Source: Sycon ciliatum (taxonomy: Eukaryota > Porifera > Calcarea > Leucosolenida > Sycettidae). Taken from it: a stretch of 64,000 nucleotides of DNA. Of this stretch, positions 12,948 through 47,022 are shown piece by piece (within the stretch, counting starts at the first letter, position 1; each line of letters begins with the position of its first letter). The stretch is taken from assembly GCF_964019385.1 (NCBI RefSeq), contig NC_088645.1, forward strand, positions 7,435,527 through 7,499,526. Reading direction: 5' to 3'. A program made the position numbers and the translations under genes. The notes below the pieces were generated by a model. The model was not told where the DNA came from and ran no database searches. It saw only the letters and a list, made by a program, of their open reading frames with translations.

Positions 12948-13685
12948 ATGGAGGCCCCACAACAGCAACAAGGTGCAGTACCTCAATGTCAAGAGCCAGT
13001 ACCACCACCGTTGCCTCCACGTCGACGGGCTCGTGCTCCACGAGCTATGGGTGCAGCAGTACGTGCGGAGTCAACGCCGCTACCACCGCTCCCAACAGTT
13101 GCGGTGTCACCACTCCCGGTAGTAGAAATGGAGGCTACAACACAGCAACAACAAGGTTCAGTATCTGCGTCTGAAGAGCCAGTTCCACCGCCGTTGCCTC
13201 CACGTAGACTTCCACGTCGGAGGGCGAGTGTTGCACCAGCTTTGGGCGCAGTAGCAGTACTTGTGGCGGAGTCAACGTTGCCGCCACCACTGCCTCCAAC
13301 GCCGCCGCCGTCACCCTCCACAACGCCGCCCCCAGCACTCCCTCCACGTGACTACCCTCTACGTGGTGCGGTTCCGGTGCCACCACCACGTGACTACCCT
13401 GTACGTGCCCCGGTTCTGCCACCACGGGACTACCCGAAGGGATGTGGACGTACTGTTGAAACAGATCGTCATGGGCGCATTATCAATGTATTCGTACCGA
13501 TGCGCGAAAACCAGGCCCCCGGAGTTGAAAGAGACGATTATACTCCGATGAATTACACTCCGATGGGGCGCGTTGACCGACATCGTCGAGCCGCTCGGTT
13601 TAAGCCATTCGACAAACTGGAGCCTATTAGCGAAGAGGTTGTCGTGGCAACCAAAGTTCCAGGTGCTGCCACGGCGCGTGACTGA
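12948..13685 (+). CDS. gene B: proline-rich YTPM protein, frameshift-truncated C terminus
   Basis: The 245-residue ORF contains a 60-residue internal duplication: residues 1-29 and 61-92 both carry QQQQG...EPVPPPLPPRR. PPPLPPR fits the class II SH3-ligand consensus PxxPxR. RDYP occurs at 134, 148 and 160. Two YTPM motifs (198-201, 203-206) fit the YxxM consensus bound by p85 SH2 domains. The ORF stops at ATARD. In a neighbouring frame, beyond a one-base shift, APHG..AMQR, LPP and EWPEF resume, which is the C-terminal region of genes E and F, although the basic tail is lost. Gene C has the same break, so it predates their duplication. B may be a shorter functional form or a pseudogene. Its 3' UTR array and AATAAA are intact. 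Confidence 0.55.
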   Translation: MEAPQQQQGAVPQCQEPVPPPLPPRRRARAPRAMGAAVRAESTPLPPLPTVAVSPLPVVEMEATTQQQQGSVSASEEPVPPPLPPRRLPRRRASVAPALGAVAVLVAESTLPPPLPPTPPPSPSTTPPPALPPRDYPLRGAVPVPPPRDYPVRAPVLPPRDYPKGCGRTVETDRHGRIINVFVPMRENQAPGVERDDYTPMNYTPMGRVDRHRRAARFKPFDKLEPISEEVVVATKVPGAATARD

Positions 13686-13834
13686 ACGCCGTGGCCCCAC
13701 ATGGTGCTGTTGCCATGCAACGCATCCTAGGACTCCCGCCCACAGATGCAAGGGTTGAGTCGAAACCCTAGGAATGGCCGGAGTTCCAACAACATCAACT
13801 AAATGTCCCAAGTCTAGACTTTCAGTTGAAACAA

Positions 13835-14115
13835 ATGTTTTAGTCTCACATTCATGTTTTAGTTTACCTATCACACAAACGTGTTTTAGTCTATCCATCC
13901 ACAAGGAATGTTTTAGTCCATTGTTATCAAGAACGACATGTTTTAGTCTAATCATTTTGAAAGTGTTCCAAACTGGTTTTAGTCTACCCATCCACAAGAA
14001 TGTTTTAGTCTATTTATCAAGTAATGACATGTTTTAGTCTACTAATCATTTTCATCTTTTTTTGGTGTTCGAAATGTTCTAGTCTATTTATTATGAATAA
14101 AATGTTTTTGTCAAT
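13835..14115 (+). promoter_or_regulatory. gene B 3' UTR: TTTTAGTCTA decamer array and poly(A) signal
   Basis: ATGTTTTAGTCTA-like units recur about ten times at irregular 20-45 base spacing (GTTTTAGTCTC, GTTTTAGTTTA, GTTTTAGTCTA, TGTTCTAGTCTA). They end in TATTATGAATAAAATG, a canonical AATAAA. The same array follows C, E and F. It could be a binding site for an RNA-binding protein or a small RNA. The function is inferred. Confidence 0.6.
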
Positions 14116-14517
14116 AATGAAGAACGAACTGTGTTGAAACACATCACTTGGTATGCGTCAGGTACATGTACATGTACAGGACCTGTTCTTTGAACGGATA
14201 CCCTACAGAAAAACAGAGAAACTATGCAGATGAACTGGAAAAGAAATGTGGTCGGTTGGTGTCCATATTCAACACTTAAAATAATAATACTGTTGTTACC
14301 GGCGTTATGATGCTAGGGCGTTCATTCTTTCACTTGGTGTGATTGCTTGTTATTCGCCTATGGAGAGAGCACGAAAACATGTTAAGAGTACTGGGTCCTC
14401 TATCCTAAAGATCCTGTTCCTCCATTACCACCACACTAGCTTTGTTTTGGGTAGCATCACTGCGGGGGTCAACGCCGCCACCACCATACCCCCCGCGTAG
14501 CCCGCTTCGGCCACCAC
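14116..14517 (+). repeat. tandem-duplication flank of the B/C/D array
   Basis: The interval 14140-14520 is closely matched by 19025-19530: ACCTGTTCTTTGAACGGAT, GTTATGATGCTAGGGC and TTCGCCTATGGAGAGAGCAC occur in the same order. It is the spacer of a tandem unit holding a proline-rich gene copy. The second copy is now displaced by two transposon insertions. Confidence 0.65.
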
Positions 14518-15153
14518 GTGTTGAGGCCAAGAAAGTTAGTTCAACAAGGTCAACCATCGCTATCCGAAAGATCCAGTTCCAACTTTGCCTCCACTTGGAT
14601 GTGCTTGTTCGCCAGTCAGCTTTGGATTGTGCAGCAGCAGCAGCTCCGGAGTCAACGCCACGTCACCACCATTCCCTCAACATGGTTGCGTTCTGCAACC
14701 ACGTCAGCCGCGCCACTACCACTCCCAGCAGTTGCGGAGTCAACGTCTCCGCCACCACTCCCTCCAACGCCGCCGCCATCACCTTCCACAATGCCGCCAA
14801 CAGCACTCCCTCCACGTAACTACCCTCTACGTGGTCAGGCTCCGGTTCCGCCACCACGTGATTACCCGCAACGTGCCCCAGTTCTGCCACCACGTGACTA
14901 CGCGAAGGGATGTGGACGTACTGCAGAAGAAGATCGTCATGGGCGCGTTATCAATGTTTTTGTACCGATGCGCGAAAACCAGACCCCCGGAGTAGAAAGA
15001 GACGATTACACTCCGATGCATTACACTCCGATGGGGCGCGTTGACCGACATTCTCGAACCGCACGGTTTAAGTCAATCGATAAACTGGAGTCTATCAGCA
15101 AAGAGATTGTCATGACAACCGAAGTTCCAGGTCCTGCCACAGCGCGTGACTGA
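14518..15153 (+). pseudogene. gene C: degenerate proline-rich YTPM copy
   Basis: The ORF opens with sequence unlike the other members because the normal start region is gone; upstream, proline codons of the family (CCTCCATTACCACCACA) lie in shifted frames. From about residue 65 it follows B: PPPLPPTPPPSPST, ALPPRNYPLRG, PPPRDYPQRAP, LPPRDYAKG, then DDYTPMHYTPMGRVDRH and a stop after ATARD, the same premature end as B. No TATA box or uORF precedes it. It is probably a 5'-broken tandem copy, though its YTPM block and 3' UTR array are preserved. Confidence 0.5.
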
Positions 15154-15289
15154 ACGCCGTGGCCCCACATGGTGCTGTTGCCATGCAACGCATCCTAGGA
15201 CTCCCGCCCACAGATGCCAGGGTTGAGTCGAAACCCTAGCAATGGCCGGAATTCCACCAACATCAACTTAATGTCCCAAGTCTAGACTT

Positions 15290-15487
15290 TCAGTTGAAAC
15301 TATTGTTTTAATCTCACATTGTCCATGTTTTACAAGTAGTTTACCTATCACACAAACTTGTTTTAGTCTATCCATCCACAAGGAAGGTTTTGGTATAATT
15401 TTCAAGAACGACATGTTTTAGTCTAATCATTTTGAAAGTGTTCAAAACTGGTTTTAGTCTATCCATTCAGAAAGAATGTTTTTGTCA
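15290..15487 (+). promoter_or_regulatory. gene C 3' UTR array, first part
   Basis: TGTTTTAGTCTA-like units continue as in gene B (GTTTTAATCTC, TGTTTTAGTCTA twice, GGTTTTAGTCTA) and are cut at 15488-15496 by the Penelope-like composite. The rest of the UTR resumes at 17026. Confidence 0.6.
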
Positions 15488-15613
15488 AATTATCAATCAG
15501 TAATACAAGCTGGATCGACATTTGTGCACACTTTATTCATGTAATGTAAAACTGTGGAGACAATGTGCAATAAAACGATGAAAATGTGAAGAAATTGTGT
15601 AGAGAAAAAAAGA

Positions 15614-15651
15614 GATTCAAACAAGTTTTCGTACAACACTCATCAGGAATC
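15614..15651 (-). ncRNA. type I hammerhead ribozyme (inverted arm)
   Basis: On minus: stem I GATTC; CTGATGA; stem II GTG/TAC with loop TTG; GAA; stem III AAC/GTT with loop TT; cleavage base T; stem I GAATC, complementary to the first strand. All core bases are canonical. The very short stem III is the pattern described for Penelope-like hammerheads. Confidence 0.75.
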
Positions 15652-15968
15652 TTCGTTGTACTAAAGGACACTGAAAACAAAATTGAACTATTATAGAAAA
15701 TCTAAGTTAGAGAAATAACACTAAGAACAACAGCATTGAAATTTACAAGTGTTAATTTTATCAATGAAAGCGAGAGCAATAACGAATGCGTGTACTAACA
15801 CTAAACTTGCAACTGAAAAATGAACAAAGAAGAGAAAGGGAAAAAGTGATAACAAATAACAGCAGTACATTACACCTAGAAAATTAAGGGCCAAGCTTGG
15901 CCGCACAAAACATGACACTTTACTTGAACAATTTCAACCCAATTATACAATCCTTCTGTACACACAAA

Positions 15969-16211
15969 TTAATTAGGCTTATACAGACGATGACAGATGG
16001 CTTCCAAAAGTTTTAACTGTAGTCCATAACCATGACGACCACGGCACAATACAGTGAAAGAAGAATCGGAATACGAATTGCAACAATCAGGACTAGCCAA
16101 CAGATGATTGTACACTGAAGGCTTGCTACCACGAAACCTACGCACAACACTAACATTCTCACGGGCAGAAGGAGGGACGTAACAGCAGGGTGACGGCCGA
16201 GACCCGTTCAA
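15969..16211 (-). pseudogene. Penelope-like C-terminal tail ORF, minus arm
   Basis: The minus frame includes ENVSVVRRFRGSKPSVYNHL, then LLASPDC and QLKLLEAICHRLYKP. It is the inverted partner of 16190-16507. It resembles the C-terminal part of GIY-YIG-bearing retroelement ORFs (xHLxxxPxC...L.VLEA..I...P.LC). RT and the GIY-YIG catalytic motif are absent. Confidence 0.5.
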
Positions 16212-16507
16212 TGAGCCAAGTCAGGCGGTATAACAGAGAAAGCGGAGAGGAAGCGGATGATGGGACGGACGGTGAAGGGAGCAATGAGTCCGAGAGCGAC
16301 GATTGTAGTGATCGTGAGAGTGCTGGTGAGAATGTTAGTGTTGTGCGTAGGTTTCGTGGCAGCAAGTCTTCAGTGTACAATCATCTGTTGGCTAGTCCTG
16401 ATTGTTGCAGTTCGTATTCTGACTCTTCTTTCACTGTATTGTGCCGTGGTCGTCATGGTTATGGACCACAGTTAAAAGTTTTGGAAGCCATCTGTCAGCG
16501 TCTATAA
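16190..16507 (+). pseudogene. Penelope-like acidic/tail ORF, plus arm
   Basis: A 105-residue frame with an acidic segment (EEADDGTDGEGSNESESDDC) followed by SSVYNHLLASPDC, FTVLCRGR and QLKVLEAICQRL, then a stop just before the expected KP.LC.Q. The sibling ORFs at 24633 and 48487 have the same order. It is 5'-truncated: no RT was found in the window for this family. Confidence 0.55.
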
Positions 16508-16824
16508 AAGCCTAATTTGTGTGTACAGAAGGATAGTAAAATCGGGTTGACATTGTTCAAGTAAAGTGTCATGTTTTGTGCGGCCAAGCTTGGCCGTTAT
16601 TTTCTAGGTGTAATGTACTGCTGTTATCACTTTTTCCCTTTCTCTTCTTTGTTCATTTTTCAGTTGCAAGTTTAGTGTTAGTACACGCATTCGTTATTGC
16701 TCTCGCTTTCATTGATAAAATTAACACTTGTAAATTTCAATGCTGTTGTTCTTAGTGTTATTTCTCTAACTTAGATTTTCTATAATAGTTCAATTTTGTT
16801 TTCATTGTCCTTTAGTACAACGAA

Positions 16825-16862
16825 GATTCCTGATGAGTGTTGTATGAAAACTTGTTTGAATC
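16825..16862 (+). ncRNA. type I hammerhead ribozyme (forward arm)
   Basis: GATTC (16825-16829), CTGATGA (16830-16836), stem II GTG/TAT with loop TTG, GAA (16846-16848), AAC-TT-GTT stem III, cleavage base T (16857), GAATC (16858-16862). It differs from the inverted copy by C to T in stem II, giving a G-U pair, so the fold is retained. Confidence 0.75.
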
Positions 16863-17025
16863 CTCATTTCTCTACACAATTTCTTCACATTTTCACCGTT
16901 TTATTTCACATTGTCTCCACAGTTTTACATTACATGAATAAAGTGTACACAAATGTCGATCCAGCTTGTATTACTGATTGCGGTTATCAAATTGTTGTCT
17001 CTTCGCCATTTGTTCTAATTATCAA

Positions 17026-17156
17026 GTAATGACATGTTTTAGTCTACTAATCATTTTCATCTTTTTCAAGGTGTTCGAAATGTTCTAGTCTATTTATTAT
17101 GAATAAAATGTTTTTGTTTATCATAATGAAGAACGAACTGTGTTGGAACACATCAC
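17026..17156 (+). promoter_or_regulatory. gene C 3' UTR array, second part, with AATAAA
   Basis: GTAATGACATGTTTTAGTCT to GAATAAAATG matches 14024-14105 of gene B. It is the displaced end of C's 3' UTR, cut again at 17157 by a LINE. Confidence 0.55.
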
Positions 17157-18762
17157 TTTGAGCATAGCTGATGCTCTGAACACTCAGTTCACCTCATTTG
17201 GGCTACCTGATGATCCTTCGTGGCGCATTCCCCCATTGTCCCAGTCGCCTTTCATATCTGTTCCGTTCCGTACAATCACTGTCACTACGTTTCAAGTTCG
17301 GAAATATCTGAAGCGCCTGAAATGTGGAAAGTCTCCCGGCTCAGATGGGATCCCGAATGAAGTGCTGCAGTCTCTTGCACCATCAATAGCCTATCCTCTG
17401 GCCATTATTTTTAATATGTCATTTCCAACTGGTACATTCCCACAGGATTGGAAATCCTCCATCGTGACACCGCTTTACAAGAATAAAGGCTCCCGTGCTT
17501 GCCCGGCAAACTACCGCACCATCTCTCTGCTGCGCACAGTTTCCAAACTTTGTGAGCGTATTGTATTCGATTCCCTCTACCTGCACATCGCTCCGGCTCT
17601 CTCACCAGCTCAGTCGGGATTCTGCCGTGGTGACTCAACTCAATACCAGGTGACTCGACTTGTCCAAGACATAGCGACAAAGAGGAACTGTGGGTAGCAC
17701 GTGGGAATGGTGTTTTTCGACTTGGCTAAGGCATTCGACACCGTTTGGCATCGTGGCTTACTTGCCAAGTTGGAGGTCACCTTCCGGGTGGAGGATGCTG
17801 CCTTGCGTTGGATATCCTCGTATCTGTCTGCTCGTTCTCAGGCTGTTCGCTTGTCCTATTTCTTGTCTGATCCCCTCCCTGTAACGTCTGGAGTGCCCCA
17901 AGGTTCCATTCTGGGTCCTTTGTTATTCTTGCTTTACGTTAATGACCTACCTTAAGTTGTCCCCGATGTTAGTTTGTATGCAGATGACACTGGCCTTATC
18001 TGTTCTGATTCCTCCCCTGCACAATTACTCCTTACCATGCAGCATCGCATCAACAGCACTGTCATGTGGATGCAAACGTGGAAACTCCAGCCCAATTTAG
18101 ACAAGACAGAAGCCATGTATATTTCTTCATCCCCTCCTGATCAACCATTATACTTCCCTGACTCGACTATGCCTATCCGTGTTGTTACTCAGCACAAACA
18201 TCTAGGTGTGATGTTTGACTGCAAACTCTCTTGGGCTGCACATGTCAGCTGTGTATGCAAGCGAACCAGTTGAGCATTAGGGGTACTACAACCACATTGC
18301 ACTCATTTGCCCATCCAGTGTAAACTATTATTTTATCAGTGCTATATTCTCCCTATATTCGACTATTGCGATACCGCTTGGTGTGGCCTTTCTGGCACAA
18401 CTCTGAACCAATTAGAAGTCCACCATAGATTTATACTTAAAATTCTTTACAACAAGGATCGATGTTTTCCTTCGGATGCCCTTTATCGACTTGCACACAC
18501 TTCTCCTCTCTCCGTTCGTCATAAGCACCATCTCTGTACAAAAAAAATATTTCTTCATAAAACCCCTTCACACATGATGAAGTACAATTGGTTTTCGACA
18601 AGCTCAACCCGTAACGCGCTCATCCTGCCTCTTGTTAAGTCAGCCCAGTATCTAAAGTCCCCTTTGTTTTCCGGCTACTCTCATTGGTTATCATTACCAT
18701 ACGGTCTGAAAACTTGTTCTTCTATTGGTCAGTTTAAAGATCTACTATCACAACTGAACTAG
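17157..18762 (+). pseudogene. LINE reverse transcriptase, one frame with three stops
   Basis: A single frame covers the [50 protein letters not shown] (catalytic Asp), [28 protein letters not shown] (catalytic pair), LGVMFDCKLSW and the C-terminal LPYGLK region. Stops interrupt it at TAG 17695-17697, TAA 17953-17955 and TGA 18271-18273. No frameshift occurs in 1.6 kb. Each stop could arise from CAG, CAA or CGA by one C-to-T change. The endonuclease is missing. Confidence 0.75.
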
Positions 18763-19028: not shown

Positions 19029-19437
19029 TGGTATGTGTCAGGTACATGTACAGCACCTGTTCTTTGAACGGATACCCTACAGAAAAACAGAGAAACTATG
19101 CAGATGAACTGGAAAGGGGAACGTAGTCGGTTGGTGTCCAAAATACTTCAGTAATATTACTAGTTTATTATTTATTTATTTTTACTATGTTCACATTCCC
19201 ATCTCGAAAATAATAAAGAAAGACAATGATACTGAGTATTACCGGCGTTATGATGCTAGGGCATGCATTCTTTCACTTGGTGTAATTGCTTGTTATTCGC
19301 CTATGGAGAGAGCACGAAAATCTGTTGGAGTACTGGGCCCTCTATCCTGAAGGTATAGTTCCTCCATTACCACCACACTAGCTTTCTTTTGGGCAGCACC
19401 ACTCGCGGGTCAACGCCGCCACCACCATACCCTCCAC
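18763..19437 (+). repeat. LINE 3' UTR, then resumed tandem-array flank
   Basis: 18763-19026 is the LINE 3' region ending in (TAA)n. From 19027 the sequence follows 14148-14520, the spacer before gene C. A short (TTA)n-rich insertion (19160-19230) resembles 6400-6450. Confidence 0.5.
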
Positions 19438-19848
19438 GTGGTCCGCTTCGCCCACCAGGTGTGGAGGCCAAGCAAGATCAACAAGGTCAACAATGTCAAC
19501 CATCGCTATCCTAAAGATCCAGTTCCAACTTCAACTCCACGTGGATGTGCTTGTTCGCCAGTCAGCTTTGGATTGTTCAGCAGCAGCTGCGGAGTCAACG
19601 CCACATCACCACCATTCTCTTCACATGGTCGCGTTCTGCAACCACGTGACTGTCAGAGGGCAGGAGGACGTACTGTTGAGACGGATCGTGGCGGGCGCAT
19701 TATGAATACTTTTTTTACGGATGCGTGCAAACGAGCCCCTGGAGTTGATGCGAGTGCAGCTCCAAACTCTAGCGCTGCTCCAGACAGAATGGTGTGGGTC
19801 ATGTATGTAAATACCCTGTTATCTAGTTTGTTTCTTTGTTTAGCTTGA
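19438..19848 (+). pseudogene. gene D: relic of the proline-rich family
   Basis: The frame shifts among family pieces: DPVPTSTPRGCACSPVSFGL and NATSPPF match gene C's 5' part, and GGRTVETDRGGRIMNTF matches CGRTVETDRHGRIINVF of gene B. PPPLPPR and YTPM are lost, and the frame ends in unrelated sequence. It is the third, decayed unit of the B-C-D tandem array. Confidence 0.55.
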
Positions 19849-19904
19849 GTGGTGTGAGTTGCCAGTATGATGCAAGCCAAATATTGAAGGATAGATTTGC
19901 CATC

Positions 19905-20256: not shown

Positions 20257-20820
20257 GCCGGGGTAAACTATTCACGCGGTGATAACTATTGTGTTCAGTT
20301 TGACTGAGTACAGAAATCAAATGGCGTGTACATTGTAAGATTCTAGGTGCCAATGAAAATAAATTACACATTTTGCAGTACCGTTTGAAGGTTTCAGGTA
20401 CCTGTAAGTGTACTTCTCCACTGTAATCAGAGTTTTACAGAGCCGAGCAGAAGAGCTCTTCTGACCTCCAGGTGTGCACCCTTATTGCCGCTTCTCTTTC
20501 TTGCCTTTTAACATGTAATCCAGGTGTGTACTTGAGAAAGTTCGATTAATTTAAAAAGTTAATTCGTGTTGATTGTCGTGCCTCCACTCGGCTACCCACT
20601 ACAGTAGGATGGCGACGTATGTAGACGTGTGTGTGCTGGAAGTCATTGGAATTAATATAATTATACATTACATGTACTTGTATGTGTGGCGATTGTATAA
20701 CGTCGTATAGGGGAACTACGATCGAATCTACGCAGGTGCATATGAACTGTGCACTATTACGGAATTTGTCTCACAAAGTATAAAAGGCGGCGCTATTTTT
20801 CTGTTTTGTGTCGGGACTTC
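20257..20820 (+). promoter_or_regulatory. gene E upstream region with TATA box
   Basis: TATAAAA at 20779-20785 (in GTATAAAAGGCGG) is followed by a pyrimidine-rich stretch. About 130 bp upstream, GTGGCGATTGTATAACGTCG and GGGGAACTACGATCGAATCT are nearly identical to the F locus. Further upstream, 20265-20350 aligns with the displaced flank of F (37185-37290) and the G upstream region, so about 500 bp of promoter sequence is shared. Confidence 0.65.
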
Positions 20821-20825
20821 ACAAT

Positions 20826-20924
20826 ATGCCAGAAGAGCAAGTGCAGCAACTATTACAAAGCCAACTGGACGCAGGCACATTGCAATCTCTAAAAGATCAG
20901 CAAGCCGCTAGTTTTGGTGTATGA
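20826..20924 (+). CDS. conserved upstream ORF of gene E
   Basis: The 32-codon uORF begins MPEEQVQQ and contains QLDAGTLQSL, ending 10 bases before the main ATG. The F locus has a 30-codon equivalent (MPEEQLQQ..QLDAGTLQIL), and G has RLDEGTVLF. Retention of start, core motif and stop near the main start suggests translational control, not a protein with its own role. Confidence 0.5.
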   Translation: MPEEQVQQLLQSQLDAGTLQSLKDQQAASFGV

Positions 20925-20934: not shown

Positions 20935-21684
20935 ATGGAGGGCAAGCAACAACAGGAGGGGGCATCATCTGTTTTTGTGATCGAAATATGCGAAGATCCA
21001 GTTCCACCTCCTCTACCTCCACGTCGACGGGCTCGTCAGCCATCAGCTTTGGTTGCAGCGGCAGTATGTGCGGGGTCACCACCACCGCCACCTCTCCCCC
21101 CACGTCGGCCTGCTCTACCACCGCGGGATTACCCGACATCAGGCCGAGCTGCTGCTGCTGAAATGCGGGCAAATCAGGCTCCAGGAAAGGCTGTAGCAAC
21201 AACAAGTAGCGCCGTGTCAGATGCAGACTACACGCCCATGGACTATACTCCCATGAGGCGGCACGGCGGGAAAACTGGCGCTGTACAAGATACAGACTAC
21301 ACGCCAATGCATTCCACCGTGATGAGGCGCAAAGTTAGACGACCTCGCGCCCCACGTATGCAGCCTATAAAGGAAGGCGTTGTTATGACAACCGAAGTTC
21401 CATGTGTTCCCACAGCAGAAGCGCTGCAAGCTGTGGCACCACATGGTACTCGTGCCATGCAACGCGTAATGAAACTTCCGCCCTCCACAGTAACGTTGGA
21501 GCGGACACCCCTGGAATGGCCTGAATTCAAGCCTAGTTACTTCGAGGAGGTCGCTAGAACCAGAGAATTTGAAGCGGCACGTCAGCAAGGCAGTGCTTCC
21601 GAAGCAGGCGCTGCCGGAGATGCAGGCCCCGTCCAGGGAAAGAAAAAGAAGAAGTCCCGGATTGCGAAGTTCTTTGAGTGGTGA
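20935..21684 (+). CDS. gene E: proline-rich YTPM protein with basic tail
   Basis: From ATG 20935 (the family-conserved start, MEGKQQ) the protein has 249 residues. PPPLPPR at about 24-30 and 51-57 fits SH3-ligand PxxPxR, and ALPPRDYP follows at 60-67. YTPM occurs at 99-102, 104-107 and 122-125, each matching the p85 SH2 ligand pattern YxxM. Residues 131-141 are arginine-rich. A conserved block AMQRVMKLPPS, then EWPEFKPSY (194-202), is shared with F and partly with G. The end is KKKKKSRIAKFFEW, a polybasic amphipathic tail that could bind acidic membrane or nucleic acid. A CGA-to-TGA change ends it four residues earlier than F. The protein has no folded catalytic domain and reads as a disordered linear-motif scaffold. 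This function is inferred and no known family was recognised. Confidence 0.7.
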   Translation: MEGKQQQEGASSVFVIEICEDPVPPPLPPRRRARQPSALVAAAVCAGSPPPPPLPPRRPALPPRDYPTSGRAAAAEMRANQAPGKAVATTSSAVSDADYTPMDYTPMRRHGGKTGAVQDTDYTPMHSTVMRRKVRRPRAPRMQPIKEGVVMTTEVPCVPTAEALQAVAPHGTRAMQRVMKLPPSTVTLERTPLEWPEFKPSYFEEVARTREFEAARQQGSASEAGAAGDAGPVQGKKKKKSRIAKFFEW

Positions 21685-21699: not shown

Positions 21700-21990
21700 T
21701 TCCCAGTCTAGACATTGCTGAAACAATTGTTATAGTCTTCAAACTTGCATGTACATGTGTTAGTTTTATGATGTAACAACCTGTTGTAGTCTACCCATTG
21801 TCAACATGTTGTAGTCTATTGTTTTAGTTAAAGTTGAGAACATAATGTTTTAGTCTACTCATTGTCAACATGCTGTAGTCTATTGTTTTAGTTAAAGTTG
21901 AGAACATAATGTTTTAGTCTACTCATTGTCACAATGTCGTAGTCTTTTCAAAAACGAAATGTTTTAGTTTGCTGCTGTATAATAAAATGA
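21700..21990 (+). promoter_or_regulatory. gene E 3' UTR decamer array with AATAAA
   Basis: About ten TTTTAGTCTA/TGTAGTCTA units, with an exact local duplication of TGTAGTCTATTGTTTTAGTT-type sequence (about 21810-21910). It ends in AATAAA at 21981-21986. The same architecture follows B, C and F. Confidence 0.6.
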
Positions 21991-35820: not shown

Positions 35821-36027
35821 TGGCAGTGGATTATAAAGACTCGCTGAAAGGAGATGAAGCACGTGGGCAACTTGTGACACGTTCTCTTGAGCCTAACGCG
35901 CAACATTCGAAGCTGGTGGTGCTTTTTAACACAGGATCAAGCCTGGATTGTCACGCATGAAAGAAAGTTTCGTCCATTCAATTCTGATTTATCCCGTGTA
36001 GTTCAAGATTCATTCAGGTTTTGTAAA
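35790..36027 (+). promoter_or_regulatory. H1 promoter with TATA box
   Basis: TATAAA at 35832-35837 follows CACTAATACGGTGACGTTTAGCTGGCAGTGG, nearly identical at H2 and H3. Downstream TCGCTGAAAGG and the leader GCCTAACGCGCAACATTC are conserved. A short uORF starts at the ATG about 35957 (MKESFVHS). Confidence 0.65.
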
Positions 36028-36744
36028 ATGTCCAGTGAAAGCCAAGAGGCTGTGCCCAAGAAGGAGGCAAAGCTTGGCTTGCGCACGAAGGTAGCGGCTT
36101 TGAGGGCAAAGAAAGCAAGTATGGAGCGTCAGCGAGAAGAAGAAAGTGAAACCAAGGAGTGTGTGCCCAAGAAGGAGGCAACGCTCAAATTGCGCGAGAA
36201 GGCAGCGACTTTAGTGGCAGAGAAAGCTAGTAGCGAGCCTTGCCGAGAAGAAGGTGATAAGACAATATCAAGTGAAACCAAGGAGAGTCTGCCCAAGGAG
36301 AAGTCGAAGCTCGACTTGCCCGCTAAGGCAGCGACGTTGGGGGCAGAGAAAGCAAGTAGCGAGCGTGGGCAAGAAGAAGACGATGTTACAATATATATTG
36401 AAATGCTTGAAGAGCTCAACCTTCGCGCTACGGCAGCAGCTAGCGAGCGTCAGCGAGAAGAAGGTGATCGTCAGAGGGCCTGCATAGCTGCCAGGGAGCC
36501 CTACAAAGTCCAATTTCAGACAAACGCCGATAGCTCGACTGATCTAGATCGTCCGTATGGTGCCCTTAAAGTTACGAAAAGTGCCCTTCCACTCCAGTCC
36601 AGTCTTCCACTGGACCCACGGGTATGGTGGGAGTTGTCACAACATCGAACTCTGGACCCTGCGTACCTGAGGACTACGCGCGAAGGACGGGTACGCATCA
36701 ATAAGATGAAGAGAGATGCGGCGAAGAGACGACAACTTGAGTAA
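36028..36744 (+). CDS. gene H1: charged-repeat protein with conserved C-terminal domain
   Basis: From ATG 36028 (aligned with H2 and H3, MSSESQ) the protein has 238 residues; the frame opens earlier at 35887 but that part is not conserved. The N-terminal half has three copies of a unit of about 40 residues (PKKEAKLGLRTKVAALRAKK, then ERQREE), Lys/Glu/Ala-rich and probably helical or coiled coil. A C-terminal domain of about 85 residues follows: EPYKVQFQTNADSSTD, DRPYGALKV, LPLDPRVWWELSQHRTL, AYLRTTREGRVRINKMKRD and a basic end. H2 and H3 have two repeats, so copy number varies while the C-terminal domain is kept. No known family was recognised. It has a TATA promoter, no intron, and AATAAA at 36819. 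Confidence 0.7.
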   Translation: MSSESQEAVPKKEAKLGLRTKVAALRAKKASMERQREEESETKECVPKKEATLKLREKAATLVAEKASSEPCREEGDKTISSETKESLPKEKSKLDLPAKAATLGAEKASSERGQEEDDVTIYIEMLEELNLRATAAASERQREEGDRQRACIAAREPYKVQFQTNADSSTDLDRPYGALKVTKSALPLQSSLPLDPRVWWELSQHRTLDPAYLRTTREGRVRINKMKRDAAKRRQLE

Positions 36745-37777: not shown

Positions 37778-40030
37778 TTAGAACACGAGCTTCATGTTGG
37801 CCTTGAAATCCTTTAGCGTACAAGACGATTTTACTGATAGAGGCAGGGCCAGCCAGAGAGAATAGGCAGCAAAAAACGGAGATCTGGTATAAGCTGAGGT
37901 TCGGGCTTTAGGTAAAGTGCAGGGATTGCGCGTAGGACGAGTGGGAAGAAACCAGTTATATTTACGCAAGTGTGGCGGGGCTTTGTCAAGACGAATAGAA
38001 TGAACAACAATACACAGTTTTCGATCCGCTTGACTAGAGATAGGGAAGGTGTTAAACATATCATACAGCTCGGCAGAAGGAAAGTATGATGGTTTGCGGA
38101 AAAGGACTTTGAGTATCCTCTTATTGTGGACTTCCAGGGTACTCATTAACGATTTACTAAGTAGGGATGACCAGGCGGTTGAGCAATAGAGAAAAATGGG
38201 GAGAATATAGCAATGATAAAAAAGGCGAATGCATTCAAGCGGTAGGTGGGAGCAGTGAGACACGAGGTAGCCAACAGCTTTACTGACTGTGCTACAGATA
38301 TAGTCGACATGTCTACTAAACGATAAGTCTGAGTCAATGACCAAACCAAGATGTTTGTGTTGTTTTACCACTGTGAGGTCTGTGAGGGATCCGGGAAGAG
38401 TGAATGCATAGGTTGGCTCTGAGTTCGGCAGGAATAATATCTCAGTCTTGGCGATATTAAGTCTTAGTCTCCAGGTAGTCATCCACTGATGGACTTCGTT
38501 GATACCGCGCTGGAGACTGTCTCGCAGCCTGTCTAGACACTCATTGAACCGGAGCAGTGCAGTATCGTCAGCAAATAAGGACACACCTTCAACATGACTG
38601 GGAATATTTATATACACTAGGAAAAGGAGGGGCCCTAGGATGGATCCCTGGGGCACTCCGGACAGAACAGGTGAAGCATCTGAGAGAGTTCCACCTACAA
38701 AGACAACTTGCGTTCTGTCGGATAGGTAGTCTGTAATCCACTCCAGCGCTGAGTCACACACACCGAAAACTTTGGAAAGTTTAGCAAGTAATGCACGGTG
38801 CCACACGGTGTCGAAAGCTTTCTCGAGGTCGAAAAAGCACATGGCAACTTTCCGCCCCATATGACGATGGTCGGCAATGTTTTGGATCAGCTTGGTGAGC
38901 TGTAGAGCGGTCGAGTCACCACGACGAAACCCAGATTGCGCGGGATCCAGAGCAGAAGAAATATGATTATACAATTGATTGAAGAAGAGCCGTTCGCAAA
39001 GTTTGGAAATACAGGACAGGAGGGAAATTGGGCGATAGTTACTAGCTTGAGATTTGCTGCCTTTGCACTTGTAAATAGGCACACTTTTAGCCAGTTTCCA
39101 GTCAGTAGGGAACTTGCCTGTGGTAAAGGAGAGGTTAAATAGGCGGCTAAGTGGAAAAGAAATCGCAGGAGCTAGCTTCTTTATCATATTGTTCGTGATA
39201 CCGACTAGCCCTGGCGCTTTCCCAGATTTCAGGTTTGAGATGGCTTTACGAACATCTGCTGTAGTGATATGAACGCGGGTGAATTGGCGAGTAGGACGAG
39301 TGTCATATTGGAGAGGGGGTATTACTAAACGTGGGTCATCAGGCACCGCGACAGAGGTAAACTGCTTGTTGATGATGGTTGCTTTTTGGAAGCTGTCGGA
39401 CACCAGCAGCCCATCAGGGCTTGCAATGTCAGGGATGCCAGGTTTTACTTTGTGCGATCGCTGACTGCGGACAAACTGGTGAAGCGTAGTGCTGCCTGAG
39501 ATAAGTGTTGTTTTGATTGAACGAATGTACTGGCGGTGGCACCAGCGGGAGAGATGTCTCACCTGGTTCCGCTGTGCCTTATATGCTGATAGGTTGTAGT
39601 CCGTAGGGAATTTCTTGGAGAGGCTGAATAGGTCACGCTTCAACTTGATAGCCTTGCGTAGTTCAGTGGAAACCCATGGATGATATTTGCGTGTAGACCC
39701 TGGGGTTGAGGGAGTTCGATTTGGTTTGCGGGAGCTATGAAGGGGAACATACTTGGACAGCACAGTCTGCAGGACACTGTGCAGGTTACTAAGTGCACTG
39801 TCCACGTCTGAGGATATTAATGAGTTCCAAGGTACTGAGTCTAAGTCTGCATTGACCGCCTCCCACACAGCAGGTGTGACGTGTCGGAGATCAAAAGACA
39901 TAGGGTTAGGCTCCTGAGCTTGAGACGTTATTTCGCGGGGAGACTGAGGCAGGGGGATGTCAGTACACAATGGCATGGTCTGAGGCGCCCAGAGGGCAGT
40001 CAGTTTCGACGCAAGACGAGAGATTGGCAC
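37778..40030 (-). CDS. LINE reverse transcriptase
   Basis: A 750-residue frame. RT motifs in order: [51 protein letters not shown] (catalytic Asp), [26 protein letters not shown] (catalytic pair), LGLVIDSDLSFSRH and a C-terminal WLALPLSVK block. The first methionine is not the true start; the frame continues from the endonuclease across two frameshifts. It is otherwise uninterrupted, unlike its relative at 17157-18762. Confidence 0.85.
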   Translation of the reverse strand: MPISRLASKLTALWAPQTMPLCTDIPLPQSPREITSQAQEPNPMSFDLRHVTPAVWEAVNADLDSVPWNSLISSDVDSALSNLHSVLQTVLSKYVPLHSSRKPNRTPSTPGSTRKYHPWVSTELRKAIKLKRDLFSLSKKFPTDYNLSAYKAQRNQVRHLSRWCHRQYIRSIKTTLISGSTTLHQFVRSQRSHKVKPGIPDIASPDGLLVSDSFQKATIINKQFTSVAVPDDPRLVIPPLQYDTRPTRQFTRVHITTADVRKAISNLKSGKAPGLVGITNNMIKKLAPAISFPLSRLFNLSFTTGKFPTDWKLAKSVPIYKCKGSKSQASNYRPISLLSCISKLCERLFFNQLYNHISSALDPAQSGFRRGDSTALQLTKLIQNIADHRHMGRKVAMCFFDLEKAFDTVWHRALLAKLSKVFGVCDSALEWITDYLSDRTQVVFVGGTLSDASPVLSGVPQGSILGPLLFLVYINIPSHVEGVSLFADDTALLRFNECLDRLRDSLQRGINEVHQWMTTWRLRLNIAKTEILFLPNSEPTYAFTLPGSLTDLTVVKQHKHLGLVIDSDLSFSRHVDYICSTVSKAVGYLVSHCSHLPLECIRLFYHCYILPIFLYCSTAWSSLLSKSLMSTLEVHNKRILKVLFRKPSYFPSAELYDMFNTFPISSQADRKLCIVVHSIRLDKAPPHLRKYNWFLPTRPTRNPCTLPKARTSAYTRSPFFAAYSLWLALPLSVKSSCTLKDFKANMKLVF

Positions 40031-40057
40031 GGTTACTAAATACCAAATCCAAGCTGC

Positions 40058-40777
40058 TTAGCAGGCTTGGACACCAGAGTGTGACGTGTATGTACATGTG
40101 TTGACGAGTTGGTGAAGACCAAATGGACTGAGCGTGCGATACAATTCAGCACGGGCAGTATTGGTGGAATCTGTCGAACACCATGACGTGTGCTTGCTGT
40201 TAAAATCACCTGTCAAGATAACGTGAGAAGATGAAAAAGGAACAGTAATGAGTACGTCTTCGAGAGTCTGGCAGTACCTTGCTATATCTGTTGGCTTAGC
40301 AGAAGGTGGACGATAACTGCAGCAGAGGAGGATCGGCTCAGCTGCAGCCGGATACGGCTGGAGTTGAACCCAAACGGCTTCGCACCCATCGCGAGCTAGA
40401 TCGGGACGCATGGCAACAGACTTAAACTTATTCTGTCGAACAAGGATAGAGACACCACCATAACCTCTTGCACTTGTCGCGGACTTATTCTCTGCAGGGG
40501 GCCTGTCCCTCCGGAAGGTGTCATAACGCGTACTTGTAATATTAAGTGCAATATTCGGGTCGAGCCAGGTTTCAGTTAGGCAGATTATGTCAGGCTGCCA
40601 CTCTTCAGCAACAATAGTAAGCTCTGTACACTTATTTACTACAGAACGACAGTTTGTTGATAGGAGTGTGAGCTGGGGTGGTGTAGAATGCTGGTGAGTG
40701 GGAAGGGAGTGTCTGGTAGGAAAGAATGGGTGTGCGTGTGGGTTCAGTGAGGAAGGTGGGTGTGGGTCCAATTGCAT
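40058..40777 (-). CDS. LINE apurinic-like (EEP) endonuclease
   Basis: The frame has LTLLSTNCRSVVNK, DIICLTETWLD (catalytic Glu), GYGGVSILVR, CCSYRPPS and LTGDFNSKHTSW (catalytic Asp/Asn), the ordered motifs of EEP endonucleases in CR1/L2-type elements. The terminal SDH motif lies a little downstream in another frame (GASDHAIVY), so a frameshift near 40070 cuts the domain. It nicks target DNA to prime reverse transcription in intact relatives. Confidence 0.8.
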   Translation of the reverse strand: MQLDPHPPSSLNPHAHPFFPTRHSLPTHQHSTPPQLTLLSTNCRSVVNKCTELTIVAEEWQPDIICLTETWLDPNIALNITSTRYDTFRRDRPPAENKSATSARGYGGVSILVRQNKFKSVAMRPDLARDGCEAVWVQLQPYPAAAEPILLCCSYRPPSAKPTDIARYCQTLEDVLITVPFSSSHVILTGDFNSKHTSWCSTDSTNTARAELYRTLSPFGLHQLVNTCTYTSHSGVQAC

Positions 40778-40834
40778 GGTTTAGTTACTTGCAGACTGAT
40801 CCAAGGTTGTGCTGTCATATTATACATTACATCG

Positions 40835-41015: not shown

Positions 41016-41053
41016 CATCACACACACTTGAGAGGAATCAAAAGCGTTTCTGC

Positions 41054-41200
41054 ATTACATTTTTGTGTGGCGACTGTGTAACGTCGTATAGGGGAACTAC
41101 GATCGAATCTACGCTGGTGCATATGAACTGTGCACAATTACGGAATTTGTCTCGCAAAGTATAAAAGGCGGTGCCGTTTTTCTGTTTTTGTTTCGGGACT
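41054..41200 (+). promoter_or_regulatory. gene F proximal promoter with TATA box
   Basis: TATAAAA at 41160-41166 (GTATAAAAGGCGG), preceded by GGGGAACTACGATCGAATCT exactly as in gene E. Homology to E resumes at 41054 after the LINE-bearing insertion. Confidence 0.65.
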
Positions 41201-41207
41201 TCACAAT

Positions 41208-41300
41208 ATGCCAGAGGAGCAACTACAGCAAATTAGCCAACTGGACGCAGGTACATTGCAAATCTTGAAAAGATCAGCCAGCCGCTTTTTTTGTGTCTAA
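41208..41300 (+). CDS. conserved upstream ORF of gene F
   Basis: Thirty codons, MPEEQLQQ..QLDAGTLQIL, ending 4 bases before the main ATG at 41305. It parallels the uORF of gene E. Such tight spacing would disfavour reinitiation and may repress translation. Confidence 0.5.
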   Translation: MPEEQLQQISQLDAGTLQILKRSASRFFCV

Positions 41301-41304
41301 GACC

Positions 41305-42081
41305 ATGGACATGGAGGGCAAACAACAAGAGCAAGGTTCACTATCTGTGTCTGTGACCGAAGTATGTCGGGATACAGTTCCACCTCCTCTACCTCCACGT
41401 CGACGGGCTCGTCAACCATCAGCTTTGGTGGCAGCATCAGCATGTGCGAGGTCACCACCACCGCCACCTCTCCCCCCACGTGGGCCTGCTCTACCACCGC
41501 GGGATTACCCAACATCAGGCCGAGCTACTGCTGCTGCCATGTGGGCAAATCAGGCTCCCGAAAATGCTGTGGCAACAACAGGTAGCGCTGTGTCGGATAC
41601 AGATTACACGCCCATGGATTCTACTCCCTTGAGGCATCAAGGCGGGGAAAATGGAGCCGTACAGGATTCAGACTACGGGCCAATGCATCACACTGCCATG
41701 AGGCGCAAAGTTAGACGACCTCGCGCCCCACGTATGCAGCCTATAATGGAAGGCGTTGTCATGGTAACCGAAGTGCCATGTATTCCCACGGCTGCAGCAC
41801 TGCAAGCTGTGGCCCCACATGGTGTTCGTGCCATGCAGCGAATCATGAAACTTCCGCCGTCCACATTACCGTTCGAGCCGGAACCGCTTGAATGGCCAGA
41901 GTTCAAGCCCAGTTACTTTGAGGAGGTCGCTAAAGCTAGAGCGTATGAAGCGGCACGTCACCAAGGCAGTGCTGCCGATACAGCCGCTGCCGGAGATGCA
42001 GGCCGTGCCAAAGTCGTCCAGGCAAAGAAAAAGAAGAAGTCCCGGATTGCGAAGTTCTTTGAGTGGCGAAAGAACGAGTAA
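41305..42081 (+). CDS. gene F: proline-rich YTPM protein with full basic tail
   Basis: From ATG 41305 (MDMEGKQQ; a second ATG at 41311 aligns with gene E) the protein has 258 residues. PPPLPPRR at about 26-33, PPPLPPR at 53-59 and ALPPRDYP match E. Of the tyrosine motifs, YTPM (101-104) and YGPM (124-127) keep YxxM, while the middle one has become STPL. RRKVRRPRAPRMQP, AMQRIMKLPPS and EWPEFKPSY are conserved. The end is KKKKKSRIAKFFEWRKNE, four residues longer than E. It is the best candidate for the ancestral form. A 683-bp element sits 2 bases after the stop codon and a LINE fragment further into the 3' UTR, so its mRNA end may be changed. Confidence 0.7.
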   Translation: MDMEGKQQEQGSLSVSVTEVCRDTVPPPLPPRRRARQPSALVAASACARSPPPPPLPPRGPALPPRDYPTSGRATAAAMWANQAPENAVATTGSAVSDTDYTPMDSTPLRHQGGENGAVQDSDYGPMHHTAMRRKVRRPRAPRMQPIMEGVVMVTEVPCIPTAAALQAVAPHGVRAMQRIMKLPPSTLPFEPEPLEWPEFKPSYFEEVAKARAYEAARHQGSAADTAAAGDAGRAKVVQAKKKKKSRIAKFFEWRKNE

Positions 42082-42769
42082 ATAGAGAGGTTTAGCATAA
42101 TGAAATTCGTCTGAATTTTCGTTAGATTTTGAATCCCGGGAACGAGTAACGAAACTGGCAACGAACTTCGGGACACACACTCCCAGAAAACATCAATCCA
42201 ACGAAGTTTGGTCTGTCGACTTTTCGTACCGCGATCACATGAGAATTTTTCCTTTCCTTTCGACATTTTTTTCTGAGGTCCTTGTTTTCACGACCAGAAT
42301 GTCCGAGCCGAACTCAAATCCTGCAGTTTCTGCAGCTGCTGTTACCTCTGGTGATCAGGAGGGACGACGACCTACGTGGGATCTGCAGATGGATCTAATG
42401 ATGCTTTGTGAGGTCGATGGCGAATTGTTTCTTGCGGAAATAACGCACGAATGAAGAAGCAGCTCTGCTGCTTTCCCAGAGCGATGAGAGATTTCAAGTG
42501 CTGGGCTGAAAAATAAAGGGCTTGTGGATCGGCTTCATCTCCTGCTCAAGAAACATTCGAGTGGTGAGGCCACCAGTTTACGAAAGTCGGGGATTGACGA
42601 GGATTGTATTTCGCGGGGATTTCCGCGACATCCACGGTATCCACCAGTAACACCGAAGTTCGTGGCGAACGTTCTGCTAAACAACAATTCAGCGAATTTC
42701 GGTCGGCTTTTTTGTACAGCGGCATAACGAAAATGAACAACGAATCTCGCTGTGCTAAACCTCTCTAAT
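42081..42769. mobile_element. 683-bp inverted-repeat element in gene F 3' UTR
   Basis: Ends AGAGAGGTTTAGCATAATGA and, inverted, AGAGAGGTTTAGCACAGCGA. AAT flanks both sides (42081-42083, 42767-42769), and the empty site is visible in gene E (GTAAATGTTCCC). Inside, RRPTWDLQMDLMMLCEVDGE and a LLKKH...SLRKSGIDED frame resemble the Myb/SANT-like DNA-binding protein carried by some DNA transposons. It is non-autonomous. Confidence 0.65.
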
Positions 42770-42807
42770 GTCCCCAGTCTAGACATCGCTGATTCAATTG
42801 TTATAGT

Positions 42808-43297
42808 AGTAGCAGTAGTAGAATCTATTATTTTACTAGAGAACTCCCAACAGGCGTTGCCTTTTTACTGGGAACCCTAGGAATGACTTGGTGCAGAAAG
42901 GGGCTTAGCTTGACGACATCCAGGTGGAAGCATGTTCCATCTGTCTGCTGCCAAAAATGAAATAGCATTCAGGCCATAACGAGACGTAGCTCTGGGTATG
43001 TTCAGAGCGGCTGAAGCTTGACCGCGGGTAGCAGCATTTGTGCGGCATGATGCAGAGCGGGGGGTAAATATCGTGCTTAAAAGAGCACTGGCGCAACGAG
43101 ATAGACACCTAAAAACAAACACAAATAGCTTCAAGTTTACACGGCGAGAGAAAGTATACAGGTTATATTTGGTGAGAATGAAATCGATAGAAGTATACTG
43201 ATCATAGCCAAACACTCGCCTTAGGCACCTATTGCTGGTTGACTCAAATTTGTCTCGGTGTTTAGCTGACAAGCAGTGAGCATAAGATGTGCTGGCC
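42808..43297 (-). mobile_element. 5'-truncated LINE fragment in gene F 3' UTR
   Basis: TAGT flanks both ends (42804-42807, 43298-43301), and gene E gives the empty site (TTATAGTCTTCAAAC). A minus frame (42877-43272) reads RDKFESTSNRCLRRVFGY, then AADRWNMLPPGCRQ, the C-terminal part of a CR1/L2-type RT protein. Confidence 0.65.
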
Positions 43298-43440
43298 TAG
43301 TCTTCAAACTTACATGTACATGTTTTTTTTGTAACAATAAGAAGATCCGGTTGTAGTCAACTCATTGTCAAAATGCTGTAGTCTACTCAAAAAATGATAA
43401 TGTTTTCGTTTGCTGCTGTAAAATATAATGTTTTTCTTTG
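43298..43440 (+). promoter_or_regulatory. gene F 3' UTR array remnant
   Basis: GTTGTAGTCAACTCATTGTC, GCTGTAGTCTACTC and TGTTTTCGTTTGCTGCTGT correspond to the gene E array, reduced to three or four units. The AATAAA of E is changed to AATATAATG here. Confidence 0.5.
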
Positions 43441-45343: not shown

Positions 45344-45353
45344 GTCTGGGAAT

Positions 45354-45593: not shown

Positions 45594-46112
45594 GACTGTA
45601 TAATTACAGTATCTAGTTACAGTGGTGGACAGTTCCTCTTAACTCGTATCCATATGTCTTTTTCCTTTCTACTTTTTCGAGTAGAAAGGTAAATAGGAAT
45701 GCATTTACCGAATGGAGTAGTTTCCTACCCAAACCTGTAGATCAAAAACGAACGCCCCGGAAATGAAAAAGAAACAAATTGTGCCGGTGTAAACTATTCC
45801 CCGGTGAAAATCTTAGCGTTCTGTTTGCCTGAGTACAAATATCGGGTGGGATGTATATTGTACAGCTCTACGTACTACTTGAAGTAATGAAAATAACTTA
45901 CCCAACTTGTAGTGCTGTTTGACGGTTTGTGACAAGCAGGAAGAGGTACGTACGTCTTGACGTATCATACTAATGTTTTGTAATGATTCTTTAACGTATA
46001 GCGGAACGACATTCAGATCTTCTCGGGTGTACATGTATGCTTGGTATGGTACTTCTATGGTATGGTATTCTCTATTTTGTGTATATGAACTGTGCCCTAT
46101 TATCACATGTGT
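45594..46112 (+). promoter_or_regulatory. gene G upstream region
   Basis: 45785-45920 (GTGCCGGTGTAAACTATTC, GAGTACAAATATCGGGTGG, AATGAAAATAACTTACCCAA) aligns with the upstream regions of E and F. Nearer the gene, TATGAACTGTGCCCTATTA matches TATGAACTGTGCACTATTA of E, but no TATA box follows at the same place. Confidence 0.5.
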
Positions 46113-46113
46113 G

Positions 46114-46185
46114 ATGTCGCTCAGCCGACTGGACGAAGGCACAGTGCTATTTCGACTCGCATTGAGAATCTCAGCGAAAGGTTAG
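46114..46185 (+). CDS. upstream ORF of gene G
   Basis: Twenty-three codons reading MSLSRLDEGTVLFRLALRIS, ending 27 bases before the main ATG. RLDEGT corresponds to QLDAGT of the E and F uORFs and RLNEGS upstream of B. Confidence 0.45.
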   Translation: MSLSRLDEGTVLFRLALRISAKG

Positions 46186-46212
46186 TTTTGTGGTACGAGA
46201 CATCCCAGTGAT

Positions 46213-47022
46213 ATGGACCCGAAGAAACATGCCCAAGGTCCTCCACCTCTCCCTCCAGAAACAGATCCACCTGCACTCCCTCCGCGTGGCTGGCCTCGTC
46301 GACCAGCGCAGCGGCCAGCGGTAAAAGTAACAGCATGTGCGGGTGCGGGTGCTGGTGCGCGTGAGAAACATGCGCAAGGTCCTCCACCTCTCCCTCCAGA
46401 AACAGATCCACCTGCACTCCCTCCGTGTGGCTGGCCTCGTCGACCAGCGCAGCGGCCAGGGGTAAAAGTAACAGCAGGTGCGGGAGCGGGTGCTGGTGCG
46501 CGTGCGGGTGCAGCACCACCACCACTCCCTCCGTATCCACCTCCACCTCCCCTTCCCCCACGTGATCGCGCTAAGCCAGGACGTGCTGCTGCGACCCTGC
46601 ACGCCGCGGCTGGTGCGGGTGCGGGTGCAGCACCACCACCTCTCCCTTCCTATCCACCTCCACCTGCCCTTCCCCCACGTGATCGTGCTATGCCAGGACG
46701 TGCTGCTGCCACCCTGAACGCCGCGGATCCAAATGGTTCTCAGGGCATGCACAGGGTAATGAGAATTCCGCCCTCACAAGCGCAAGCCCCCAAGCAGGCC
46801 AAACATGTGCGATGGGACTTCAAGCCCAGTTTTCACGCCGACATACCTCCACCTGAAAATTTTGTGGCCGGGCACGGTCGAGTGGCTGCGGCTCGAGTCA
46901 ATCAAGCACACGGAAAGCCTGGCCCTGCTGTAGACCCTGCAGACGCTCGTGCCGCTGTCCCCCCACCCAAGAAGAGCAAGTCCAGGATTTCGAAGTTATT
47001 AAAATTTGCCAAAAGGAAGTAA
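46213..47022 (+). CDS. gene G: proline/alanine-rich member, no YTPM
   Basis: 269 residues. Two 47-residue repeats (141 bp period, starting at about 46224 and 46365) contain HAQGPPPLPPETDPPALPP and GAGAGA. Two further repeats carry YPPPP.LPPRDRA.PGRAAAT. LPPRD fits PxxP-type SH3 ligands, but tyrosine YxxM motifs are missing. The C-terminal half keeps MHRVMRIPPS and RWDFKPSFH, matching AMQRVMKLPPS and EWPEFKPSY of E and F, which establishes the relationship. The end is KSKSRISKLLKFAKRK, a basic amphipathic tail. It is intronless and shares distal upstream sequence and a uORF with the other members. It may do the scaffold part of the job without SH2 recruitment; this is inferred. Confidence 0.65.
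   Translation: MDPKKHAQGPPPLPPETDPPALPPRGWPRRPAQRPAVKVTACAGAGAGAREKHAQGPPPLPPETDPPALPPCGWPRRPAQRPGVKVTAGAGAGAGARAGAAPPPLPPYPPPPPLPPRDRAKPGRAAATLHAAAGAGAGAAPPPLPSYPPPPALPPRDRAMPGRAAATLNAADPNGSQGMHRVMRIPPSQAQAPKQAKHVRWDFKPSFHADIPPPENFVAGHGRVAAARVNQAHGKPGPAVDPADARAAVPPPKKSKSRISKLLKFAKRK

Follow-up and report, generated by a model that had tools for sequence, protein, structure and literature searches.

Class II ligands of SH3 domains follow the consensus XPxXPx+, as with CD2AP SH3-2 and RIN3, and a second motif, PxxDY, is bound by the SH3 domain of EPS8 and by NCK SH3.1, with ABI1, RN-tre and CD3 epsilon as ligands; in CD3 epsilon, binding of NCK SH3.1 to PxxDY hinders phosphorylation of its tyrosine (PMC10453029). 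Here we describe a cluster of orphan genes in the calcareous sponge Sycon ciliatum whose products carry both motifs. The cluster lies in a stretch of 64,000 nucleotides, hereafter the window (contig NC_088645.1, positions 7,435,527 to 7,499,526 of the forward strand; C3:7435527-7499526 in the genome searched). PPPLPPR and PALPPR in these proteins fit the class II consensus, and the PPRDY units, set among prolines, match PxxDY (PMC10453029). With the CD2AP and RIN3 ligands, however, the motif alone is shared, the family being without homology to a known protein in the libraries searched. Unlike the EPS8 and NCK ligands, the PxxDY motif is here fused to PxxPxR (ALPPRDYP), and one member of the family, G, has no PxxDY at all. 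The reading that we prefer, at about even chances, is that the family encodes multivalent SH3-ligand proteins, largely disordered and soluble, from intronless genes whose output would be tuned at the RNA level. The members in the window are as follows.

12948-13685, plus strand: gene B, an open reading frame (ORF) of 245 amino acids with 7 PxxPx[RK], 3 PPRDY and 2 YxxM
13686-13786, plus strand: what remains of the C-terminal segment, out of frame, downstream of B
14518-15153, plus strand: C, a copy of B, with its N-terminal part split across frames and a pair of YTPM units
19404-19848, plus strand: D, a relic of a B/C-like copy
20935-21684, plus strand: gene E, 249 amino acids from the ATG (open from 20914), with 5 PxxPx[RK], 1 PPRDY, 3 YxxM and a polybasic C-terminus
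41311-42081, plus strand: gene F, 256 amino acids (open from 41293), a paralogue of E at 79% identity, with 4 PxxPx[RK], 1 PPRDY and 2 YxxM
46213-47022, plus strand: gene G, 269 amino acids, a distant paralogue with 3 PxxPx[RK] and a polybasic C-terminus

A first-pass annotation, made from the sequence alone, had listed the ORFs B, C, E, F and G with D as a relic, and all of these were confirmed; one extra B-like copy, C14, lies on another contig. The genome searched comprises 538,412,230 bases in 313 contigs, and all genome-wide match counts are lower bounds. A search with E (E-value up to 0.001) gave at least six matches, namely E, F, B, the remnants after B and C, and the C14 copy. At the same threshold B recovered itself, C14, C, E and D (E-value 1.8e-4), with F at 0.01; at an E-value up to 1 there were at least ten matches, including second, weaker hits in E and in F and two places that look unrelated (0.37 and 0.49). 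With G, the matches at an E-value up to 1 numbered at least five: G itself, F (0.00105) and E (0.002), F again in a different stretch (0.51), and one further place (0.33). The kinship of G to the family is strengthened by its DNA, since its upstream region resembles that of E (71.5% over 151 bases, E-value 1.3e-17) and its leader resembles that of B (77% over 97 bases, E-value 2.3e-14). Significant matches of E, B and G are thus confined to the cluster (B, C, D, E, F, G) and C14. Outside the genome, no Pfam match was found at an E-value up to 1 for the eight proteins scanned, PHROGs and NCBIfam gave none for F, G and B, the PDB sequences gave none for F (the one member searched there), and the IMG/VR viral contigs and the prokaryote contigs held no relative. 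These collections and the genome itself make up the sequence searches, with no animal proteome or genome collection among them. In the literature on lineage-specific proline-rich SH3 proteins of sponges and on intronless orphan genes, nothing on this family was found among the matches listed. The gene family is real, small and absent from the libraries searched, in keeping with the first-pass view that it was not a recognised one, and it is possibly lineage-restricted.

Are the motifs more frequent than the composition of these proteins would produce? We counted overlapping matches in each protein and in 2000 shuffled versions of it. PxxPx[RK] occurs 5 times in E, where the shuffle mean is 0.67 and none of the 2000 shuffles reaches the observed count; F (4 matches; reached by 3 of 2000), B (7; 0 of 2000) and C14 (6; 13 of 2000) are likewise above their shuffles. 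SH3-ligand motifs are thus enriched in E, F, B and C14 but not in G and C, which are at shuffle level (C has 2, a count reached by 345 of 2000 shuffles). PPRDY is present in 3 copies in B and in C14, 2 in C, 1 each in E and F, and 0 in G. The most distinctive feature is PPRDYP, in which PxxPxR is fused to PxxDY: it is found in B, C14, E and F, three times each in B and C14, and there it overlaps PxxPxR every time. A further segment described earlier as MxRVM...W..FKPS is indeed present in E, F and G, but F has RIM, so that the pattern is better written MxR[VI]M, and G reads W-D-FKPS, one residue shorter than WPEFKPS.

The retention of the motifs was examined in the two classes that the first-pass annotation had named, counting gaps as changes and using circular shifts of the blocks as a control. 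Between E and F, none of the 22 residues in SH3-ligand blocks is changed, compared with 23% in the rest of the protein, and only 4 of 248 circular shifts are as low. Between B and C14, 2 of 41 are changed (rest 27%; 7 of 244 shifts as low), and in these blocks synonymous changes number 10 in 39.8 sites (0.251) against 2 nonsynonymous changes in 92.2 sites (0.022). The SH3-ligand blocks are preserved, whereas the YxxM units are no better kept than the background in E/F and B/C14. Other blocks (the C-terminal blocks, the GRTVET block of B/C14, and the identical B/E, B/G and E/G peptides) were picked after viewing the alignments, so their zero or low nonsynonymous counts arise partly by construction.

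The proteins are probably mostly disordered, as far as structure prediction indicates. The AlphaFold2 model of F (predicted with E and G) has a mean predicted local distance difference test score (pLDDT) of 52.8 and a predicted template modelling score of 0.14, with 135 of 256 residues below a pLDDT of 50. Its proline stretch (residues 51-60) averages a pLDDT of 71 without structure, and its sole confident secondary-structure element is a helix at residues 245-255, in the basic tail. On a charge-hydropathy plot E and G fall on the disordered side but F and B lie slightly past the line, among ordered proteins, so that the earlier description of the proteins as disordered is favoured by the model and only in part by the plot. 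No strongly hydrophobic stretch was seen in E, F, G or B: the highest 19-residue Kyte-Doolittle mean of 0.73-1.64, a hydropathy measure and not a dedicated predictor, speaks against a signal peptide or transmembrane stretch. Among the members, E, F and G alone retain the polybasic tail with its SRI[AS]K; the net charge of the last 22 residues is +5 in E, +7 in F and +9 in G. The tail had been called basic and amphipathic. Basic it is, but its hydrophobic moment is equalled by 802 (E) and 1045 (F) of 2000 shuffles, which is chance level, and by 145 in G, which is marginal.

The DNA around the ORFs has a common anatomy. Upstream of the start codon the following features were found.

20779-20787, plus strand: TATA box of E, TATAAAAGG, at -156
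41160-41168, plus strand: TATA box of F, TATAAAAGG, at -151
12797-12805, plus strand: degenerate TATA box of B, TATGAAAGG (TATG in B), with TATAAAAGG at the equivalent place in C14
12839-13174, plus strand: upstream ORF of B, 111 amino acids, shifted by one and overlapping the main ORF
20826-20924, plus strand: upstream ORF of E, 32 amino acids, ending before the main start
41208-41300, plus strand: upstream ORF of F, 30 amino acids, ending before the main start
46107-46211, plus strand: upstream ORF of G, 34 amino acids
46114-46185, plus strand: second upstream ORF of G, in another frame, with an LDEGT peptide like that of the other copies

In E, F and C14, TATAAAAGG lies 156, 151 and 163 bases before the start codon, respectively; no TATA box was found within 400 bases upstream of G. 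The main ORFs of B, C14, E, F and G all begin with an ATG that has G at -3 and G at +4, and their leaders are alignable with one another. A DNA search with the B leader returned at least three matches (B, C14 and G); it missed E and F and is not exhaustive. In five of the five copies examined, an upstream AUG stands 103-121 bases before the main start, in a frame shifted by one; in C14 it opens an ORF of 100 amino acids that overlaps the main ORF. We considered whether the upstream ORF is itself protein-coding and set this aside on inspection of the alignments: by eye, the changes between B and C14 there are mostly amino-acid changing, and E and F carry locally compensated shifts. The upstream AUG is therefore treated as regulatory.

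Downstream of the ORFs is an array of a 12-base motif, TGTTTTAGTCTA.

13836-14114, plus strand: 3' array of B, 10 TGTTTTAGTCTA-like motifs within 2 mismatches
14096-14101, plus strand: AATAAA signal of B, near the array end, with one weak motif beyond
15304-15488, plus strand: 3' array of C, first part, 5 motifs
17035-17120, plus strand: 3' array of C, probable second part, 3 motifs
21728-21971, plus strand: 3' array of E, 9 TGTTTTAGTCTA-like motifs
21981-21986, plus strand: AATAAA signal of E, at the array end
15494-16980, strand not assigned: nested inverted repeats (foldback element), most arms 93-97% complementary

Nine such motifs (up to 2 mismatches) also follow C14. The window contains 18 copies of TGTTTTAGT, where 0.83 would be expected, and 15 of the 18, including one at 17035, follow B, C and E in the coding orientation. 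AATAAA begins 10 bases past a motif in B, C14 and E, and in C14 and E that motif is the last one. Exact TGTTTTAGTCTA pairs 7-36 bases apart occur three times in the 538 Mb genome, once in B and twice in C14, while control pairs of the reversed motif do not occur at all; the exact copies in E are 64 bases apart and so fall outside this pattern. The information content of the 3' motif is biased, as its sites were picked by their match to the motif itself. The foldback element looks like an insertion that has split the array in the 3' region of C. The 3' flank of F is also interrupted (42083-43380), with an E-like trailer resuming at 42767-42807 and a lone array motif at 43374. UAG is the core bound by the Musashi and Unkempt proteins (PMC12136788), and the repeated 3' motif holds UAG in many copies. 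The motif here is longer, however, at 12 bases, and the resemblance is one of motif alone, which makes binding by such proteins only a lead.

How might these parts work together? In the mechanism that we propose, the several class II ligands (PxxPxR) of each protein would bind SH3 proteins multivalently, and this binding would cluster or titrate SH3 adaptors, with those of the NCK/EPS8 type as candidate partners. The basic C-terminal helix of E, F and G could provide a second contact, possibly with acidic membrane or nucleic acid. The genes are predicted to be transcribed and intronless, a model that the TATA box, leader, 3' array and AATAAA fit. Expression would probably be tuned post-transcriptionally, through the upstream AUG and, in B, C14 and E, the UGUUUUAGUCUA-like array directly ahead of the poly(A) signal. 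The first-pass annotation had read the proteins as scaffolds recruiting both SH3 and SH2 proteins; its SH3 half stands, as something we infer from the sequence. It is tempting to go further and hypothesize a new lineage-specific SH3-scavenging family, in which PxxPxR-PxxDY repeats cross-link NCK/EPS8-type adaptors and dosage is set by the upstream AUG and the UAG array, but we hold this extended version only tentatively and think it rather unlikely.

Several observations weigh against the multivalent SH3-ligand reading. In G the 3 PxxPx[RK] matches are what composition predicts (mean 2.16; 724 of 2000 shuffles). The SH3 blocks are not clearly favoured between C and B (1 of 15 changed, rest 22%; 25 of 152 shifts as low). 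Between E and F they are also nearly free of synonymous change (1 in 25.8 sites), and because this is missing too, the blocks of this pair cannot separate conservation of protein from conservation of DNA. The basic tail is absent from B, C and C14, and the 3' array is nearly absent from F (1 motif) and absent from G (0). The coding sequences of B and C14 are 86.4% identical, less than their flanks (87.7-92.4%). Between E and F the rates at non-CpG sites are alike in all classes (fourfold 0.113, zero-fold 0.094, noncoding leader 0.099). Finally, no constraint was detected between B and C (CpG-stratified odds ratio 1.2, p-value 0.69).

The last three points bear on selection, which we estimated as the ratio of nonsynonymous to synonymous substitution rates (dN/dS) by the Nei-Gojobori method with bootstrap ranges. 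The ratio is 0.29 (0.18-0.48) for B/C14, 0.40 (0.24-0.78) for C/C14, 0.62 (0.40-1.06) for B/C and, for the E/F comparison called for earlier, 0.465 (0.31-0.72); E/G (0.52) and F/G (0.31) come from uncertain, near-saturated alignments. These figures overstate constraint because flank divergence and CpG sites must be controlled: flank identity and the concentration of changes at CpG rule out taking them at face value. The synonymous excess in E/F sits largely at CpG sites (fourfold changes at 13 of 26 CpG sites but 11 of 97 others; non-CpG changes at 39 of 414 zero-fold and 22 of 223 leader sites), so that selection on this pair is weaker than its ratio suggests. When fourfold and zero-fold sites are compared within CpG strata, the odds ratio is 3.2 for B/C14 (p-value 3.3e-5) and 2.1 for E/F (p-value 0.010). 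B/C14 looks constrained as protein, purifying selection on E/F is weak, and C is probably unconstrained.

In a serious rival reading, part of the cluster is decaying: recently active or mostly relaxed genes would be turning into pseudogenes, kept open largely by their youth and low-complexity composition. This is possible, though we think it somewhat unlikely. B has lost its C-terminal segment by a frame change, and so has C, the segment persisting downstream of each, out of frame and with a stop inside; C is also broken in its N-terminal part, and of D only a fragment is left. A TGA stops E four residues short of the end of F, insertions break the 3' flanks of C and F, and dN is near the noncoding divergence. 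Decay does not account as readily for the synonymous excess that survives CpG stratification in B/C14 and E/F, for the long open frames of E, F, G and B, or for the keeping of the TATA box in E, F and C14, the leader, and AATAAA in B, C14 and E.

A less probable alternative is that these are structural or RNA-binding proteins, rich in proline, that contain PxxPxR simply because prolines and arginines abound in them. The many arginines, the basic tail and the lack of PxxPx[RK] enrichment in G and C agree with it; the excess of the motif over shuffles in E, F, B and C14, together with the retention of SH3 blocks in B/C14, argues against it.

IRS-type proteins are an example of adaptors that recruit p85 through YxxM. 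The first-pass annotation placed the present family in this light, as a scaffold recruiting PI3K by phosphorylated YxxM alongside SH3 proteins by PxxPxR. The DYTPM units do fit YxxM, a consensus of the p85 SH2 domains (PMC2373309), and YxxM exceeds composition shuffles in E (3 units; 2 of 2000), F (2; 25), B (2; 13) and C (2; 19). Between C and B 1 of 10 unit residues is changed (69 of 152 shifts as low). The genome moreover holds four exon-like PI3K_P85_iSH2 (PF16454) matches above the Pfam cut-off, with pieces on contigs C1 and C4, although the search was made exon by exon and the complete inter-SH2 domain was found in no single place. Against this, the family differs from IRS-type adaptors in having no Pfam domain, its units are poorly kept in two of three pairs, and two members lack them. 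Between E and F 5 of 20 unit residues are changed (100 of 248 shifts as high; 3 of 15, recounted by eye, without the HSTVM unit) at a background of about 21%, and the two other units of F read DSTPL and HHTAM. Between B and C14 7 of 10 are changed (15 of 244 shifts as high), 5 of the 7 being one deleted unit. YxxM was said to be carried by all but G and D; it is in B, C, E and F, but the extra copy C14, like G, has none, with a single YTPR where B has its pair. In B and C the two adjacent DYTPM units form a tandem repeat of 15 bases and are therefore not independent. As a conserved function YxxM is not borne out, and the PI3K branch is disfavoured, and improbable in our judgement, although p85-type exons exist in the genome.

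That the ORFs belong to a transposon or a domesticated mobile protein is very improbable: retroelements lie within the cluster and copies occur on two contigs, but genome copies are few (counts being lower bounds), no known transposon protein or other Pfam family is matched, and the homology of B and C14 runs for about 2.5 kb through the flanks, like a segmental duplication.

The neighbouring mobile-element sequences are these.

46-3684: gag-pol-type ORF
17140-17697: reverse-transcriptase fragment, below the Pfam cut-off
37778-40777: reverse transcriptase and endonuclease of long interspersed nuclear element type
58151-58774: reverse-transcriptase fragment, above the Pfam cut-off
58918-59739: reverse-transcriptase fragment, below the Pfam cut-off

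Three of the nine neighbourhood ORFs scanned gave no match. A second ORF family occupies 35887-36744, 51439-51987 and 60881-61429, with products that begin MSSESQ, have K/E-rich repeats and carry a C-terminal DPRVWWELSQHRTL..AYLRTTREGRVRINKMKRDAAKR; the two members tested had no Pfam match. Its last two ORFs lie within a tandem duplication of about 9.4 kb (98-99% over the listed stretches), with TATAAAT at -196. ORF A (7812-8414) encodes 200 amino acids; it contains a tandem repeat of 129 bases, and its C-terminus, SRLSSRISKAFGQKKKQ, is basic. By eye its SRISK near the C-terminus suggested a relative of the family, but a profile of the E/F/G C-terminus scored it at 3.0 bits (E-value 12), a score that many of 500 shuffles of A surpassed, and the genome search found A alone, so we rejected it. 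The window also has a (TC)n run some 535 bases long at 55675-56209 and, starting about 195 bases past G, a repeat of TGTC type at 47217-47400.

If the multivalent SH3-ligand reading is true, this would be a clear example of a gene family assembled from small docking motifs: composite SH3 ligands persist, putative kinase-pathway motifs turn over, and the array of 3' motifs can be traced through duplications. The family offers concrete testable peptides and a reporter element.

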